This document shows, in pieces, positions 6,876 to 43,628 of a stretch of 44,863 nucleotides of DNA (position 1 is its first letter; each line of letters begins with the position of its first letter). The position numbers were made by a program, and so were the translations under genes. A model generated the notes under the pieces. That model was not told the origin of the DNA. It searched no databases and saw only the letters and a program-made list of their open reading frames with translations. Source of the stretch: a virus. The stretch covers positions 1-44,863 of the IMG/VR virus record IMGVR_UViG_3300042260_001010, one strand, 5' to 3'.

Positions 6876-7467
6876 ATGTGACCTGACAGATTTTCGTGCT
6901 GGACGATTGCTCGTTCTCGGCGACAGCGGAAACCGTGCCAAGAGCGGCGACATCTTATGGGTCTGTATGTGCGACTGCGGAAATCTTCACTTGGCAGTTA
7001 AAGGCAACTTAAGGGCCCGTTCGGTTCAGTCCTGCGGTTGCTTGGCGCGCGAGTTGTCGTCACTGCGAATGCGCAGCGCAGCCAGGCCTGCCCAAAGGTG
7101 TCGACACGAGGGCTGCGAGCAAACGACTGAAAAAGGCGGTCTTGGCTATTGCGGGATGCATGCGCAGAGGCTGCGCAGATGGGGCGATCCTGCCTACGTG
7201 ACGCCAGAGGAAATTCGGCGGACCAATAACCGCGAGGCCCAGCGCCAGCGTTTTTCAACTGTCAAGCCATCGACCTACAGAAAACTCTTCGGCCGCCACG
7301 AGCACCGCGTCGTGGCGCAAAACATGTTGGGAAGGCCCTTGCGCAGTGACGAGCATGTCCATCACCTGGACGAGAACAAACACAACAACGCACCTGAAAA
7401 CCTCGCTGTCATGTCGGCCAGAGAACACCTGGCCCTGCATGCAAAGCAAAGGAGAAATGAAAAATGA
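6865..7467 (+). CDS. HNH endonuclease (homing-type) inserted between nuclease and helicase genes
   Basis: 200 residues. The N-terminus holds a zinc-knuckle-like CxCxN...SCGCL motif (CMCDCGN about residues 34-40, SCGCL about 56-60), typical of phage free-standing HNH enzymes. A second Cys/His group (CRHEGCEQ ... YCGMH) lies in the middle. The C-terminal HNH motif is EHVHHLDENKHNNAPENLAV, in which paired His, Asp/Glu and Asn coordinate metal. The gene overlaps its upstream neighbour by 11 bases and its downstream neighbour by 4 (ATGA). This suits a selfish element fitted into an operon without polarity. Its target is unknown. Confidence 0.85.
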   Translation: MANRCDLTDFRAGRLLVLGDSGNRAKSGDILWVCMCDCGNLHLAVKGNLRARSVQSCGCLARELSSLRMRSAARPAQRCRHEGCEQTTEKGGLGYCGMHAQRLRRWGDPAYVTPEEIRRTNNREAQRQRFSTVKPSTYRKLFGRHEHRVVAQNMLGRPLRSDEHVHHLDENKHNNAPENLAVMSAREHLALHAKQRRNEK

Positions 7468-14459: not shown

Positions 14460-14467
14460 TTGTACAA
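14460..14467. promoter_or_regulatory. TGTACA-type operator between yefM and the methyltransferase gene
   Basis: The palindrome TTGTACAA contains the TGTACA core recognised by YefM proteins. It lies in the 38-bp divergent gap and nearly touches the methyltransferase start, so repression could affect both genes. Confidence 0.5.
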
Positions 14468-14468
14468 C

Positions 14469-15761
14469 ATGATGACTCAAAATTGGTTAATCAGTAAAGT
14501 CGAGCAGTGGCCAACGGCCAAGCTGTTGCCCTATGCCCGCAATGCGCGCACCCACTCTGAGGCCCAGGTCGGACAGATTGCCGCCTCCATCAAGGAGTTC
14601 GGCTTTACCAACCCCATTTTGGCGGGCGCTGATGGCGTGATCGTCGCAGGGCATGGACGCTTGGCTGCAGCCCAGCACCTGGGTCTGGAATCGGTTCCCG
14701 TGATCGTGTTGGACCACCTGAGTGCAACGCAAAGGCGCGCTCTGGTGCTGGCCGACAACCGCATCGCTGCCAATGCTGGCTGGGACGAGGAGTTGCTGAA
14801 ACTTGAAATCACCGAACTCGATGAGGCCGACTTCAATCTGGATCTGATGGGCTTTGGTGACGAAGAACTCGAGCGTTTGCTCAATGGCGAGGGCGACACC
14901 ACGGGCCTGACAGATGACGATGCAGTACCCGATATGCCAGCTGACCCTGTCTCCAAAACAGGTGATGTGTGGGTCTTGGGTCAGCACCGTTTGCTGTGTG
15001 GTGACTCCACAGTGCTCTCCGATGTGGAGCGCCTTATGAACGGTCAGCTCGCAGACATGGCGTTTACTGATCCACCCTACAACGTGGACTACGGCAACAA
15101 CGCCAAAGACAAGATGCGCGGCAAGGACCGCCGCATCATGAACGATGCGCTTGGTGACGGGTTCTACAAGTTCCTCTACGACGCCTGCGTCAACTTGTTG
15201 GTGGTGACCAAAGGTGCTTGCTACGTGTGCATGAGTTCCTCTGAGTTGCACACCCTGCAAAAGGCCTGGCTGGATGCCGGTGGCAAGTGGTCCACGTTTG
15301 TGATCTGGGCCAAGAACACTTTTACGCTTGGTCGCGCCGACTACCAGCGCCAGTACGAGCCCATCCTGTACGGATGGAAGGAAGGCGCAAAACACTTCTG
15401 GTGTGGCGATCGTGACCAGTCGGATATCTGGAACTACAAAAAGCCCCATGTCAACGACCTGCACCCGACGATGAAGCCGGTGGAGTTGGTCGAGCGTGCC
15501 ATTAAGAACTCATCCAAGACGCGCGACATCGTGATCGACTTGTTTGGCGGCTCTGGCACAACGCTCATTGCTTGCGAGAAAACCAATCGCCAGGCGCGCC
15601 TCTTGGAGATGGACCCCAAGTACGTGGACGTGATCGTCAAGCGTTGGCAAGACTTCACGGGTCAGCAAGCGGTGCGTGAGGACGATCAAATCAAGTTTGA
15701 CGACATGCACCCGGCATTGTCCGAGGTCAAAAATGCTGAAGTGGCCAGTGCGCCACTTTGA
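14469..15761 (+). CDS. ParB-like nuclease domain fused to adenine DNA methyltransferase
   Basis: 430 residues. Residues about 15-100 are a ParB/Srx-like domain (LLPYARNARTHSEAQVGQIA ... GVIVAGHGRLAAAQHLGL). Residues about 165-405 form an N4/N6 methyltransferase with DPPY (201-204) before FGGSGT (359-364), so it is beta class. It methylates adenine (or N4-cytosine) in DNA. No restriction enzyme is adjacent, so it is an orphan, possibly protecting phage DNA from host restriction or marking it for packaging. ATG codons occur at 14469 and 14472. AGGAA lies at 14453-14457; a TTG at 14460 is too close to it. Confidence 0.92.
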   Translation: MMTQNWLISKVEQWPTAKLLPYARNARTHSEAQVGQIAASIKEFGFTNPILAGADGVIVAGHGRLAAAQHLGLESVPVIVLDHLSATQRRALVLADNRIAANAGWDEELLKLEITELDEADFNLDLMGFGDEELERLLNGEGDTTGLTDDDAVPDMPADPVSKTGDVWVLGQHRLLCGDSTVLSDVERLMNGQLADMAFTDPPYNVDYGNNAKDKMRGKDRRIMNDALGDGFYKFLYDACVNLLVVTKGACYVCMSSSELHTLQKAWLDAGGKWSTFVIWAKNTFTLGRADYQRQYEPILYGWKEGAKHFWCGDRDQSDIWNYKKPHVNDLHPTMKPVELVERAIKNSSKTRDIVIDLFGGSGTTLIACEKTNRQARLLEMDPKYVDVIVKRWQDFTGQQAVREDDQIKFDDMHPALSEVKNAEVASAPL

Positions 15762-38561: not shown

Positions 38562-40007
38562 ATGCCCAACCTCATTCAAATCAAACGATCCGCCACCACC
38601 GCTACGCCGCCCACGCTGGCAGTGGGGGAACTGGCCTGGTCCGAAGTCAGCAAGACGCTGTTCATCGGCGAGTCCGGCAGTGTTGTCACTGCCGCCGCTG
38701 GCTCGGGGGTCTTTGCCAAGAAGGCTGACAGCTTCGCAGTCAGTGGCGATGCAACTGGCACCGGCACGCTGTCGGGTGGCGTGGTGCTGGCCCTGGCGGC
38801 CAGTGGCGTTGGCGCAGGTAGCTATTCCAACGTCACCGTGGACGCCAAGGGACGCGTGACTGGCGGCTCAAATCCGGGTTACCTCACTGCGAACCAGAAC
38901 ATCACGGTGTCTGGTGATGCAACGGGTTCAGGCACAACAGCGATTGCACTGACTCTGGCCAGCAGCGGTGTTACGGCGGGGACTTACAACAACGGCGTCA
39001 CGGCGCAGACGCCATTCACTGTTGATGCAAAAGGCCGCATTACCGCCATCGGTACAGCCGTAACAGTGACGCCCGCCTGGGCCAGTGTCACCGGCAAGCC
39101 AACTACGCTGTCTGGCTACGGGATCACCGACGCACTGGCGCTCACCGGTGGCACGCTCACTGGCGCTTTGACTTTAGCGGCGGACCCCACCAACGCACTC
39201 CACGCAGCAACCAAGCAGTACGTGGACAACGCCATCACCGGACTGGACTTCAAAGCATCGGTTCGCGCGGCCACCACAGCCAACATCACGCTCTCTGGAA
39301 CACAGACGATTGATGGTGTAGCGCTCATCGCAGGTGACAGAGTGCTGGTCAAAGACCAGACGACTCCAAGCCAGAACGGTTTGTATTTAGTGGCCGCAGG
39401 CGCATGGACACGCACTGCAGACGCCGACAACTCTCCTGCAGGCGAGGTCTCCTCCGGGCTGTACACCTTTATTGAGGAAGGGACTACCTACGCTGATTCA
39501 GGTTGGGTGCTTGCCAGCAACAACCCGATCACCATAGGCACTACCGCGTTGACGTTTCAGCAATTCAACGGTCTGGGACAACTCACTGCGGGCACAGGCC
39601 TGACCAAGTCCGGCAATACGCTGTCAATGACCTCCTCGGGCGTTACGGCTGGAACCTATTCCAGCATGACGGTGGATGTCACCGGACGGGTCACTGCGGG
39701 CACCAACCCGGGCTACATCACAGCCAACCAAAACATCACGGTCTCAGGCGATGTCACTGGTTCGGGAACAACATCGATGGCGCTCACCCTGGCTGCCAGC
39801 GGCGTGACGGCGGGCACATACAACAATTCAGCCACGGCGCATACGCCATTCACCGTTGATGCCAAAGGCAGAGTCACAGCCATTGGTGCGGCTGTCACGG
39901 TCACGCCTGCATGGACCAGCGTCAGTGGCAAACCTACAACCCTGTCTGGCTTTGGTATCACGGACGCCTTGTCCACCAGCGCCACGATTGACGGAGGCTC
40001 GTTCTAA
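38562..40007 (+). CDS. Tail fibre protein with duplicated repeat
   Basis: 481 residues, rich in Gly, Ser and Thr. The head (MPNLIQIKRSATTATPPTLA, then VGELAWSEVSKTLFIGESGS) is a common fibre-attachment module. A long copy of the repeat (SGVTAGTY..., VDAKGRIT, VTGKPTTLSGYGITDAL) occurs twice. Between them is a typical fibre segment with AATKQYVDNAITGLDFKASV and VALIAGDRVLVKDQTTPSQN. The gene probably encodes a trimeric host-recognition fibre. Confidence 0.88.
   Translation: MPNLIQIKRSATTATPPTLAVGELAWSEVSKTLFIGESGSVVTAAAGSGVFAKKADSFAVSGDATGTGTLSGGVVLALAASGVGAGSYSNVTVDAKGRVTGGSNPGYLTANQNITVSGDATGSGTTAIALTLASSGVTAGTYNNGVTAQTPFTVDAKGRITAIGTAVTVTPAWASVTGKPTTLSGYGITDALALTGGTLTGALTLAADPTNALHAATKQYVDNAITGLDFKASVRAATTANITLSGTQTIDGVALIAGDRVLVKDQTTPSQNGLYLVAAGAWTRTADADNSPAGEVSSGLYTFIEEGTTYADSGWVLASNNPITIGTTALTFQQFNGLGQLTAGTGLTKSGNTLSMTSSGVTAGTYSSMTVDVTGRVTAGTNPGYITANQNITVSGDVTGSGTTSMALTLAASGVTAGTYNNSATAHTPFTVDAKGRVTAIGAAVTVTPAWTSVSGKPTTLSGFGITDALSTSATIDGGSF
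38865..39971 (+). repeat. Two 273-bp repeats inside the tail fibre gene
   Basis: Copies at 38865-39137 and 39699-39971, each 91 codons, share GxNPGYxTANQNITVSGDxT, ALTLAxSGVTAGTYNN, PFTVDAKGRxTAIG and VTPAWxSVxGKPTTLSG. They are separated by about 560 bases. Recombination between them could remove or multiply fibre segments. Confidence 0.9.
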
Positions 40008-40216: not shown

Positions 40217-40828
40217 ATGGCAGCTATTCCATCCAAGGCCAGTTTTACTGGCACTACCGTAACCCAAGGGCAGTTCAAGACTGCCCTTGATTCTTTAAAC
40301 GACTACCTTACGGGTTTGCTGGGCTCAGACGGTACAGCAGCGACAGCGCGAACGGCATTGGGCGTGATCAATGCGACAGCGCCGACCTATGCGCAGGTGA
40401 TTGCCGCACTCGGTTTCACGCCTCCGCAGCCCGGTGGCACCGGTGCATCAGGGACCTGGCCTATCAGCGTAAGCGGCAATGCGGCCACCGCATCCAAACT
40501 CAATTCAACGGCGGGCGCTGGCACGTACAACTGGACGGGGCAGTCCGGTCAGCCGACCTGGGTTTGGGGTGGTAACGACGGGACCAATTTCTATGTCTAC
40601 AACCCGTCTAACTTCTCGGTGAACTACGCGGGTAGCGCAGGCACTGTGCCCTGGACTGGCGTGAGTGGACGCCCCACTGCGGTTGCAGATTTTCAGTACA
40701 GCGGAAACGTTGGTGACGGCATCGGAGGTGCGTTAGCTGTCAGCGCACTGGTTCAAGTCGCAACAGATAACACGGTACGCATTTATCGAAACACGAACTG
40801 CAATTGCGACTGTGCTTGCTGCTGCTAA
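40217..40828 (+). CDS. Fibre-like protein with six-cysteine C-terminal tail (candidate modification substrate)
   Basis: 203 residues. The body is fibre-like and Gly/Thr/Ala-rich (GTGASGTWPISVSGNAATAS, TYNWTGQSGQPTWVWGGNDG, VPWTGVSGRPTAVADF). There is no Cys in residues 1-194. The last residues are NTNCNCDCACCC, with Cys at 195, 197, 199, 201, 202 and 203. Such a tail would be strange as an ordinary fibre end and looks like a substrate tag for cross-linking, metal binding or Cys chemistry. The downstream genes encode a 2OG-oxygenase-like and a radical SAM enzyme. GGAGG precedes the ATG. Confidence 0.82.
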   Translation: MAAIPSKASFTGTTVTQGQFKTALDSLNDYLTGLLGSDGTAATARTALGVINATAPTYAQVIAALGFTPPQPGGTGASGTWPISVSGNAATASKLNSTAGAGTYNWTGQSGQPTWVWGGNDGTNFYVYNPSNFSVNYAGSAGTVPWTGVSGRPTAVADFQYSGNVGDGIGGALAVSALVQVATDNTVRIYRNTNCNCDCACCC

Positions 40829-40839
40829 GGACCCACAAC

Positions 40840-41631
40840 ATGAAAATCATTGCAGTGCGAAACGCAAAAATTCATCCCCAGTTTCAACCAACCGTTCATC
40901 TCGGTTTCGACCCTGTCACGAGCGACCTGAGTGTGTCCCTGTATCTGCCATCGCTTGCGATAGAGGAGGCGGCTACGGGTATCGCTGGCTTGACGTTGAT
41001 TGAGTCGGTGGTCGTCAACGTTGGTGACCTGCGCAAGCGCTACGACTGGTGCGATCACCAGACCTACTTTGTGGCTGTTCATGCCGGGGCGTTTCTTCCT
41101 GTCTTTGCGCTGTACCCAGAGACACTCCCCAATCGCGAGACAGCGGTCGATTACGCCCAACGCCTCAAGAGAAATCTGCTGGTGGGCATCAACGTGCCAT
41201 TCGCAGCGGCCAGTGACGATGAGTTGTTCATCACGGTGAACCTCAACGCGCAGGCGACGGATGCCAACATTCAGGTCGATGAGCACTGCGCGTTGGTCTG
41301 GAGCGATGCGGCCAGCAGCGGCGCTGTTCGTACCATGGCGTTTCCGTTCATTCATGTGCAAGCGCCTGCCAGTGTTGCAGCAGGCGGCAGTGCCTTGATC
41401 GAATTGCGCATCGAGGATGTAGCTGGTCAACTGCTTGACCGGGAGGCTGTTGTCTACCTGGAAGCTGTGAGTGGACTGGTGCCTTTTGCACGCGTGCGTG
41501 CGTCTCATGGTTTGGCTTCGGTTCCCGTCTCGGCGGCAGCCATGTCTGCTGGAGATGAAATCCGGGTGAAGTTCGGCTGGAAGTATTTTCCAGGCGCAGA
41601 GGATGCGCGGATTGCGGTGGTGGCTGCATGA
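40840..41631 (+). CDS. Unknown protein with Ig-like C-terminal part, first partner in the modification cassette
   Basis: 263 residues from ATG 40840, 11 bases after the Cys-tail gene stop, with AAGGACC upstream. Residues 1-160 are mixed (YDWCDHQTYFVAVHAGAFLP, ETAVDYAQRLKRNLLVGINV). Residues about 175-263 resemble a bacterial Ig-like repeat (PASVAAGGSALIELRIEDVA, GLASVPVSAAAMSAGDEIRV). No enzyme motif is seen. It may be a virion protein, a chaperone or a scaffold for the downstream enzymes. Its TGA overlaps the next ATG by four bases (ATGA). Confidence 0.75.
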   Translation: MKIIAVRNAKIHPQFQPTVHLGFDPVTSDLSVSLYLPSLAIEEAATGIAGLTLIESVVVNVGDLRKRYDWCDHQTYFVAVHAGAFLPVFALYPETLPNRETAVDYAQRLKRNLLVGINVPFAAASDDELFITVNLNAQATDANIQVDEHCALVWSDAASSGAVRTMAFPFIHVQAPASVAAGGSALIELRIEDVAGQLLDREAVVYLEAVSGLVPFARVRASHGLASVPVSAAAMSAGDEIRVKFGWKYFPGAEDARIAVVAA

Positions 41632-42185
41632 TGCAACTGCTTTTCCCAACTCCGGTGTTTCGCACCCAACTTGGATTGACAGACGAAGAGCGTCAAGTCC
41701 TCAAAGAAAAGACGCTCGCGGTCTATGGCGAACTTAACCCCGATAGAAAACCTTGGAGCCGCTCGACCCGTGAGTCACTCGAATCCATGGACCCTGCATT
41801 TGCAGACCTGTTCGCACGAATCAAAGCCGTGACCAGCGAGGCTTTCGGTATTGGCATCGCATCCATCACCGGCAGGGAAGTGGTTCAGTTCAAAGGTGAT
41901 TTCGTACCGCCCCATGTGGAGTCGGCCCATTTGTCTGCCATCTACTGGATTGATGGTGACACCCACCCCGACCCTGAGCGCGGCGAGTACGACGGCGCAT
42001 TGGTCTTGCAAAGCCCGATCGGCCCCTATGGCAGCAAGGCGCTGCCTGGTGAAAAGCGCGTGTCCATGATCAACCCTCAGCCGGATTTGCTGCTGGTGTT
42101 TCCGAGCCACTTGCTTCATTTCGGGCATGTTTACCTGGGCGAGCGTCCCAGCGTTGAAATCCACATTGAGATGGAGGTGCTCTGA
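41628..42185 (+). CDS. 2OG-Fe(II) oxygenase-like protein
   Basis: 185 residues. The family start LLFPTPVFRTQLGLTDEERQ and the cupin-like core VPPHVESAHLSAIYWI, then LLLVFPSHLLHFGHVYLGER resemble the PF13759-type 2OG-Fe(II) oxygenase. Candidate ligands are His96, Glu98 (HxE form), His164 and the 2-oxoglutarate-binding Arg173. Such enzymes hydroxylate proteins or small molecules. The HxE in place of HxD is unusual but tolerated in some families. It is coupled at both ends (ATGA; TGATG), so it should be made in balance with the radical SAM enzyme. Confidence 0.75.
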   Translation: MMQLLFPTPVFRTQLGLTDEERQVLKEKTLAVYGELNPDRKPWSRSTRESLESMDPAFADLFARIKAVTSEAFGIGIASITGREVVQFKGDFVPPHVESAHLSAIYWIDGDTHPDPERGEYDGALVLQSPIGPYGSKALPGEKRVSMINPQPDLLLVFPSHLLHFGHVYLGERPSVEIHIEMEVL

Positions 42186-43552
42186 TGGCCCAGTTCAAGA
42201 TCAAGCTCATTGCGCCGGACAACACTGAGCGCGAGTTGCATTACGACAACCAGACCAGCAGCCTGACTTGGGGAGCGGATGGGTTTGGCTCCCCGGTACT
42301 GGAAGTCAATCCCAAAACGTTTCAGGATGCCACGGTCGTGAGCACTACCCAGCCAGGCCGAAAAGGCCTGATCAAGACTCTCAAAATCAGCCTAGGTTTG
42401 TCCTGCAACTACGAGTGCAACTACTGCAGCCAGCGCTTTGTGCCCCACGCTGAAAGCACGAATCCTGAGGATGTGGAGGACTTCCTGCAGCAGTTGACCA
42501 CCAGCCTGAGCCAGGCTCCCGAGCGCATTGAATTTTGGGGCGGTGAACCACTGGTGTACATCAAGACCTTGAAGCCTTTGGCTGAGCGCCTGCGAGTGCT
42601 GTACCCGGATGCTGAGTTCCTGATCATCACCAACGGCTCATTGCTCAGTCTTGAGACCAACGAGTGGCTGGACCGAATGGGCTTCGTCGTCGGGCTCTCC
42701 CACGATGGACCTGGCTACCACGCACGCGGGGCAGACCCGCTAGACGACCCGCAGCAGCGCGCCGCCATCATGGATTTGTACGCGCGCCTCCAACCGCAGG
42801 GCCGCATCAGCATCAACGCGATGATCAGCAGCCAAAATCCGAGCAGGGCAGCGGTGCAGCTTTGGCTGCAAGAACGCTTCGGGGCCGATGTTCAGATTGG
42901 TGAAGGCGCATTCATCGACCCCTACGATGAAGGCGGCCTGGCCGCCACCTTCAAGACCACCGCTGAGCACGCACAGTTTCGCAGGCAAGGGTTTGGTGAA
43001 GTCCGCACTGGCCTTACCAGTCGCTTTGACCTCACCAACCAGAAGATTCAAGACTTCATCGATTCCATTCGCTACCAGCGCCCAGCCTCTGCGCTTGGGC
43101 AAAAGTGCGGCATGGACCGCAGCCACAACCTGGCTGTGGATCTCAAGGGCAATGTCGTGACCTGCCAGAACGTGAGCGCTGCTGCCTTGGCTCCCAATGG
43201 ACAGAGTCATCTGATTGGCCAGTTGTCAGACCTGTCCGCTGTGCGCATGAAAAGCGCCACGCACTGGAGCCAGCGCCAAGGCTGCTCATCTTGCCCAGTA
43301 CTGCAAATGTGCAAGGGCTCGTGCATGTTTTTAGAAGGTCCGCTTTGGGAAGCTGGGTGCGACGCCGCCTATTCGGACAACTTGGTGTTCTTTGCGGTGG
43401 CCATTGAGTTTCTGACGGGTTGCATGCCTGTCTTTATCGACGGCGATCTGCCGCCGGAGCGCAAGGACATCTTTGGCCTGGCCAAAAGTACTGTGGAGTC
43501 GCCGCCAGTAAGGCGCGTGATTCCGATCATTGCAGCGCAGCAAACAGCCTAA
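42185..43552 (+). CDS. Radical SAM/SPASM peptide or protein-modifying enzyme
   Basis: 455 residues. The radical SAM motif CNYECNYC is at Cys74, Cys78 and Cys81; GGEPL at about 119-123 binds SAM. A SPASM-type C-terminal domain contains Cys308, Cys327, Cys367, Cys370, Cys376, Cys380 and Cys392 (CSSCPVLQMCKGSC pattern), which hold extra 4Fe-4S clusters. SPASM enzymes include sulfatase maturases and RiPP thioether or epimerase enzymes. The N-terminal 60 residues are a beta-rich extra part. The gene is the last of a coupled cassette; a terminator follows 28 bases later. Modification of the Cys-tail protein is inference. Confidence 0.92.
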   Translation: MAQFKIKLIAPDNTERELHYDNQTSSLTWGADGFGSPVLEVNPKTFQDATVVSTTQPGRKGLIKTLKISLGLSCNYECNYCSQRFVPHAESTNPEDVEDFLQQLTTSLSQAPERIEFWGGEPLVYIKTLKPLAERLRVLYPDAEFLIITNGSLLSLETNEWLDRMGFVVGLSHDGPGYHARGADPLDDPQQRAAIMDLYARLQPQGRISINAMISSQNPSRAAVQLWLQERFGADVQIGEGAFIDPYDEGGLAATFKTTAEHAQFRRQGFGEVRTGLTSRFDLTNQKIQDFIDSIRYQRPASALGQKCGMDRSHNLAVDLKGNVVTCQNVSAAALAPNGQSHLIGQLSDLSAVRMKSATHWSQRQGCSSCPVLQMCKGSCMFLEGPLWEAGCDAAYSDNLVFFAVAIEFLTGCMPVFIDGDLPPERKDIFGLAKSTVESPPVRRVIPIIAAQQTA

Positions 43553-43579
43553 GCCACACAACAAACCGTTTCATCAATT

Positions 43580-43628
43580 GCCCGCCTGGTTCACCTTTTG
43601 TGTGTGCCAGTGCGGGCTTTTTCTTTTT
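43580..43628 (+). terminator. Intrinsic terminator closing the tail/modification operon
   Basis: Stem GCCCGCCTGG (43580-43589) pairs with CCAG (43607-43610), a bulged T, and GCGGGC (43612-43617), followed by TTTTTCTTTTT. It separates the cassette from the lysis genes. Confidence 0.85.

Follow-up and report, generated by a model that had tools for sequence, protein, structure and literature searches.

The stretch of viral DNA analyzed here, referred to in full as the window (IMG/VR record IMGVR_UViG_3300042260_001010, positions 1 to 44,863, 44,863 nucleotides), comes from a tailed phage with genes for a lambda-like tail protein J, tape measure, terminase, portal, and endolysin. Four genes at positions 40217 to 43552 probably constitute a tail-tip maturation cassette, in which a radical S-adenosylmethionine (SAM)/SPASM enzyme would modify the cysteine-rich C-terminus, or Cys tail, of the fiber protein encoded beside it. 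The association between this tail and the radical SAM gene, first noticed in the window, is confirmed in a broad set of relatives and extends well beyond the window phage.

Co-occurrence of the Cys tail and the radical SAM gene

A scan of viral contigs with the radical SAM protein of the window yielded 423 relatives, 80 of which were fetched. In nearly all fetched loci that include upstream sequence, a protein encoded 0.9 to 3.1 kb upstream ends in Asn-Cys (NC) repeats. For the enzyme-first count, relatives scoring at least 550 bits with at least 4 kb of upstream sequence were clustered at 85% identity and a strict tail rule was applied, which was satisfied in 81 of 94 phage-type enzyme clusters on the same strand; applied to the antisense strand, the rule was satisfied in 3 of 94. 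Among the 13 misses are loci with internal NC runs (L312, L325, L332, L333, and L207) and one with a looser tail (L053); in two further misses, the tail lies at −6 kb, outside the rule or the locus (L265), or the locus is cut (L050).

The association was also approached from the tail, by scanning viral contigs for codons of NCNC(N/D)CxC followed by a stop, a search that used no information about the enzyme and returned 94 stretches, 93 of them new loci. These contigs are partly redundant, and the counts refer to contigs rather than independent events. Seventy of the 93 lie on contigs carrying the radical SAM gene, in 2 cases only as a remnant, and in 6 the tail sits within 1.5 kb of a contig end on the side where the gene would be. 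The other 17 are matches that are not in frame at the end of an open reading frame (ORF), and none of their contigs carries the radical SAM gene. An in-frame tail lacking the gene despite available sequence was not encountered anywhere in this tail-first scan of viral contigs. Chance was rejected as the cause of the co-occurrence given that out-of-frame matches come without the enzyme, and redundancy among close strains was rejected as the sole cause given that the enzymes reached by the tail-first scan extend down to 38% identity to the window enzyme. Among 399 genomes of the Limnohabitans order, many matches were to (AACTGC)n/(GACTGC)n simple repeats; those inspected are internal, out of frame, or low-complexity and were set aside. 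Where the tail is terminal or of the Hint type, in 4 of these genomes (G001, G080, G149, and G130), the enzyme is always present.

The sequence-only reading of the window had called for a check of whether the Cys-tail gene and the radical SAM gene co-occur, and when Cys tails without the enzyme and enzymes without the tail were sought in both directions, the link between the two was not refuted. We regard a functional link between enzyme and tail as highly probable.

The Cys tail of the fiber protein

The Cys-tail fiber gene of the window (40217 to 40828, plus strand, as are the other genes, the motifs, and the terminator of the cassette) encodes 203 amino acids without a match to a Pfam or PHROG family. 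As the initial reading had stated, cysteine is restricted to the last nine residues, with all six Cys in CNCDCACCC. The C-terminus reads NTNCNCDCACCC, and its final NCNCDCACCC (40796 to 40825) is the proposed substrate. The codons of this tail are AAC TGC AAT TGC GAC TGT GCT TGC TGC TGC, with synonyms mixed, and synonymous Asn or Cys codons are mixed in 188 of 224 tails; an origin of the motif as a DNA microsatellite was rejected on account of this mixing.

Tails of relatives contain 3 to 9 Cys, and the interspersed residues are N (250), A (43), D (34), and G (26). NCNCDCRC, NCNCNCNC, and NCNCCGC are examples of such ends, and the fibers that carry a tail measure about 65 to 690 amino acids and have very different bodies. 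Tail proteins of 80 to 170 amino acids look like short fibers or Cys-rich structural proteins, and 2 loci (L075 and L077) encode three proteins of 90 to 100 amino acids in a row, every one ending in an NC tail. In another group of loci (L312, L319, L325, L327, L332, and L333), the downstream neighbors of the enzyme are Cys-rich NC proteins that carry a SKIICxKLY...GYxxWA domain at the C-terminus. This domain was considered as a system-specific marker and rejected, as a protein of cyanophage SynMITS9220M01 has the domain without an NC run.

The enzymes and the helper protein

The fourth gene of the cassette (42185 to 43552) encodes a 455-amino acid protein modeled by AlphaFold2 (AF2) with a predicted local distance difference test score (pLDDT) of 90.6. 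Profile searches and invariant Cys motifs both bear out the initial proposal of a radical SAM/SPASM enzyme: the protein matches Radical_SAM (PF04055) above its cut-off, the SPASM domain model TIGR04085 with 34.1 bits (cut-off 27), and phrog_1802 (E-value 8e-60). In an alignment of 39 sequences, the radical SAM motif C74-x3-C78-x2-C81 (42404 to 42427) and a WGGEP motif are invariant, as are all seven SPASM Cys, at a spacing of C-x(9-15)-G-x4-C ... C-x2-C-x5-C-x3-C ... C; in the window, these form C308-x13-G-x4-C327 ... C367-x2-C370-x5-C376-x3-C380 ... C392 (43106 to 43360). On these features, the protein is assigned to the radical SAM superfamily and its SPASM subfamily. Its closest solved folds are maturases of proteins or peptides, with anSMEcpe at the top and CteB (which forms thioethers), ChlB, SuiB, and SkfB among the others.

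Among bacteria, the closest copies of the radical SAM gene (96%) come from Limnohabitans/Comamonadaceae genomes. Elsewhere, Sulfuritalea and Gallionellaceae contigs (L214, with L253) carry enzyme homologs of about 478 bits without a Cys-tail fiber, and the L253 homolog has neighboring genes that, judged by their beginnings, may be flagellar.

For the third gene (41628 to 42185, 185 amino acids), the suspected 2-oxoglutarate (2OG)-Fe(II) oxygenase identity was upheld by a match to phrog_81 (E-value 1.6e-12) and by retained iron ligands, a metal-ligand motif of the form HxD/E...H that comprises H96-x-E98 and H164, with both His invariant in 21 sequences. The Pfam model 2OG-FeII_Oxy_5 (PF13759) scores 20.2 on the window protein against a cut-off of 27 and reaches 40.3 on a relative (L022). 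The second gene (40840 to 41631, 263 amino acids) encodes a helper protein whose confident model (AF2 pLDDT 95.7) has an immunoglobulin (Ig)-like C-terminal domain. Its N-terminal domain has no known solved fold; comparison with the PDB and with viral folds returned only unnamed phage proteins.

Among 103 nonredundant loci with both tail and enzyme, the Ig-like helper is present in 78. In 13 of the 103, including gp029 of Achromobacter phage JWF, the helper is a different, coiled-coil protein that never occurs together with the Ig-like one, and a handful of loci have neither kind. The oxygenase is present in 65 (about 63%), with two or more copies in 15. Of the two enzymes, the constant partner of the tail is the radical SAM enzyme, with the oxygenase optional. 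The proposed pair of co-modifying enzymes survives in part: the radical SAM gene follows the tail, while the oxygenase does so only in those 65 loci. Because helper and oxygenase vary among loci, the minimal unit consists of the tail and the radical SAM enzyme.

Some cassettes contain additional genes. In L228 (4361 to 5431) and L215 (7894 to 8982), the helper and SPASM enzyme genes are separated by a further radical SAM gene of a different kind, and in L171 (2859 to 3800) a TRAP-transporter-type solute-binding protein (DctP, 174 bits) is encoded inside the phage cassette, between the tail genes and the enzyme.

Gene layout and exchange of the cassette

The tight packing described at the outset is borne out by the window ORFs, with an 11-base gap after the fiber gene followed by an ATGA and a TGATG overlap, as is the terminator after the fourth gene, where the operon ends. 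This intrinsic terminator (43580 to 43628) consists of a stem at 43580 to 43617 that folds at −26.4 kcal/mol (z = −5.4) and is followed by a T run; a consensus terminator scan did not pick up the stem, which was found by folding.

Sister phages indicate that the cassette moves as a unit. Four of them (L395, L397, L398, and L399) have the first 91 residues of the window fiber in common (83% to 88%) and a Cys-less C-terminus, and no radical SAM, oxygenase, or Ig-like gene was found in the available sequence of these contigs. The flanks of L398 and L399 match the window on both sides at 82% to 89% DNA identity; the homology ends inside the fiber gene at 40466 and restarts at 43612 to 43615. Across the exchanged unit (40467 to 43611), another fiber end and two small genes replace the fiber C-terminus, helper, oxygenase, and radical SAM enzyme as a block. 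The alternative cassette (1539 to 2183 in L399, 5814 to 6426 in L395) encodes proteins of 81 to 83 and 126 amino acids behind the Cys-less fiber, the larger of which has an HKH motif and looks cupin-like by eye. Another phage (L401) has part of the window fiber N-terminus on a different body, with an NC tail and the enzyme present.

Elsewhere in the window, two related stretches of about 320 bases (38814 to 39133 and 39657 to 39973) within the upstream 481-amino acid fiber gene cross-match in relatives, and positions 14460 to 15761 encode a DNA methyltransferase fused to a ParB-like nuclease domain (phrog_498, 550 bits).

Self-cleaving domains after the tail

Within the phage collection, the enzyme occurs in two isolates only, Achromobacter phages JWF and 2-1. 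In gp028 of JWF, the tail NCNCDCNCNCS runs directly into CFPAGT..., with which a Hint domain begins (Hom_end_hint, 47.5 bits against a cut-off of 32.1, from residue 308). L203, L304, L065, L313, L286, L243, and L298 have a Hint domain in the equivalent position behind the tail (Pfam, with weaker scores). In L323, SDDTLK and a Peptidase_S74 domain come after the tail NCNCDCNCDCFW. Because Hint and S74 domains are self-cleaving, the tail would become the mature C-terminus in JWF and in the relatives with either domain. Two unrelated types of self-cleaving domain abut the tail, and we infer therefore that the virion requires a tail with a free end.

Comparison with known maturases

The window enzyme resembles several characterized SPASM proteins without belonging to their families. 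PapB joins a Cys sulfur to Asp or Glu (in Asp, at the beta carbon) over Cys-Xn-Asp spacings of n = 0 to 6 with little sequence preference (PMC9413430). Like PapB, the relatives combine radical SAM and SPASM domains, the PapB model (NF047865) is matched by 39 of 39, and the PapA substrate is rich in Cys and Asp; the substrate proposed here differs in lying at the C-terminal end of a large protein of the virion, where Cys alternates with N, D, or A and there is no Cys-X3-Asp/Glu array. CteB (PDB 5wgg), the SCIFF maturase, is similar in fold (TM-score 0.58 by query length), SPASM domain, and Cys-rich substrate, but SCIFF is a small conserved peptide and sequence identity to CteB is about 15%. That SPASM enzymes can act on full-size proteins is evident from anSME and QhpD. 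The QhpD-type model TIGR03906 is matched by 39 of 39 relatives, but anSME and QhpD have other target motifs and products, and their curated cut-offs are not reached. Membership in the PapB, SCIFF, or sulfatase maturase families was rejected because scores fell below the cut-offs.

The window enzyme and JWF gp030 belong by score or annotation to phrog_1802, a phage family labeled as a radical SAM domain-containing protein; PHROGs lists neither function nor partner for this family, and the link to the tail is new here. JWF and 2-1 share the enzyme with the window phage, and JWF gp028 the NC tail, but they differ in the Hint domain after the tail, the coiled-coil helper, and the lack of an adjoining oxygenase. 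Substrates of ribosomally synthesized and post-translationally modified peptide (RiPP) pathways are short precursors with an N-terminal leader and a released core; the presumptive substrate here is a 203-amino acid fiber, with lengths of up to 686 amino acids elsewhere. By analogy, the system appears to work like a RiPP-type pair of maturase and substrate that stands outside the named RiPP maturase families and the leader-directed pathway. In L247 (10777 to 10965), an enzyme homolog in a bacterial, non-phage-looking setting is followed by a 62-amino acid peptide ending in SAGACACACGGPCY. This peptide has the look of a typical small precursor, and the system may have originated in cells.

Proposed mechanism and alternative explanations

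In the proposed mechanism, the alternating (Asn/Asp/Ala)-Cys tail at the fiber C-terminus would serve as substrate for the radical SAM/SPASM enzyme encoded next to it. The enzyme would act inside the infected cell, either ahead of tail assembly or while it proceeds, and abstract hydrogens from tail residues. Cys sulfurs would then most likely be joined to nearby carbons in thioethers of the sactionine/ranthionine type, each with a mass change of −2 Da. The Ig-like protein, or the coiled-coil protein in other phages, is a near-constant helper and probably a fiber partner or chaperone, and in loci with a 2OG oxygenase this enzyme probably adds hydroxyl groups to Asn/Asp or other residues of the fiber. 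The resulting tip would be rigid and resistant to oxidation, would perhaps link the trimer, and would make contact with the host surface. The C-terminal tip of a fiber is usually its distal, host-facing end, which makes adsorption or stability of the tip the natural guess as to function. Substrate, bond type, timing, and adsorption role are all inferred here. A tail of 3 to 9 Cys alternating with Asn, Asp, and Ala plausibly suits thioether formation, tentatively our first choice of chemistry. It is a bolder and rather unlikely extension, which would amount to a new class of post-translational modification in viruses, that radical SAM cross-links weld the C-termini of the fiber trimer into one covalent cysteine-thioether tip, exposed by Hint or S74 cleavage where needed, for host contact in many phages of Proteobacteria.

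Several observations weigh against this mechanism. Two loci (L196 and L285) look like true exceptions in which the enzyme occurs without the tail, and several distant enzyme homologs (below 550 bits) do not adjoin a Cys-tail fiber. Conversely, L390/L391 (the same as L098/L120) have lost most of the radical SAM gene to deletion but retain the tail. The oxygenase is absent from 38 of the 103 loci. With respect to the chemistry, the window enzyme scores 51.9 bits on the PapB model against a curated cut-off of 340, and PapB needs Cys before Asp, while the acceptor here would mostly be Asn. Neither a leader peptide nor a RiPP recognition domain was seen; in the AF2 model of the enzyme there is no RiPP recognition element, its N-terminal 60 residues forming three short strands with no winged helix. 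As for L390/L391, positions 6971 to 7126 encode only residues 89 to 140 of the radical SAM protein, between two deletions; tail, helper, and oxygenase are kept, and the lysis-side sequence is also missing. These contigs represent either a decayed cassette or an assembly artefact.

The enzyme may act on the tail and yield a product other than a thioether, such as formylglycine, an epimerized or decarboxylated residue, or C-C cross-links. This would alter the chemistry only, leaving the link between enzyme and tail in place, and we consider it the main rival to thioethers, possible if somewhat doubtful. The SPASM fold does not fix the chemistry, and anSMEcpe, the top structural match, acts on Cys to give formylglycine; however, the CxPxR/SxPxR sulfatase motif is absent from the tail, the window enzyme scores 39.5 bits on the sulfatase maturase model against a cut-off of 349.45, and the 3 to 9 Cys kept in the tails suit sulfur-based links. 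That the tail is instead an unmodified tip that binds metal or an Fe-S cluster or forms disulfides, with the enzyme acting elsewhere in the module, is improbable. CxC repeats are typical of metal binding, and certain phage spikes carry iron in their needle tips. But the radical SAM gene tracks the tail rather than the fiber body, being absent where the same body lacks the tail and present where other bodies have it, and the SPASM enzymes nearest in fold act on proteins and peptides.

Two further explanations dispense with the tail as a substrate altogether. Both enzymes could modify host molecules, as the initial reading had already suggested as an alternative, for instance lipopolysaccharide or in superinfection exclusion, as cargo of the tail operon, a setting reminiscent of the pelagimyophage host-recognition islands in which radical SAM cassettes lie beside glycosyltransferases (PMC7029224). 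Such cargo would leave unexplained both the co-occurrence with the tail motif (70 versus 0) and the Hint and S74 domains bordering the tail, making this a very remote prospect. We give still less credence to a functionless linkage within a transferred tail module. The cassette is indeed swapped as a block between sister phages, but the association persists between enzymes only 38% identical and with different helpers and fibers, is kept where gene order varies with the Cys protein before or after the enzyme, and a tail without an intact radical SAM gene was found only as two deletion remnants.

Implications for phage biology

To our knowledge, no radical SAM enzyme has been shown to act on a protein of the virion. 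In the open-access literature, with subscription journals and most preprints outside its scope, we found side mentions only and no description of the tail or of its link to the enzyme. A study of pelagimyophages noted radical SAM cassettes in the host-recognition cluster and left them unexplained (PMC7029224); these fit the system proposed here. If the modification of the Cys tail by its neighboring enzyme is borne out, phrog_1802 would gain a function, as would the odd oxygenases and Ig-like proteins beside phage fibers. The 423 relatives from one viral-contig scan would constitute a large natural set of enzyme-substrate pairs, and a short C-terminal NC string acting as a substrate tag would be attractive for protein engineering. 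For the phages themselves, it would mean new chemistry at their receptor-facing end, and the conserved pairing suggests a system, not described before, that would harden or equip the fiber tip at the point of contact with the host.

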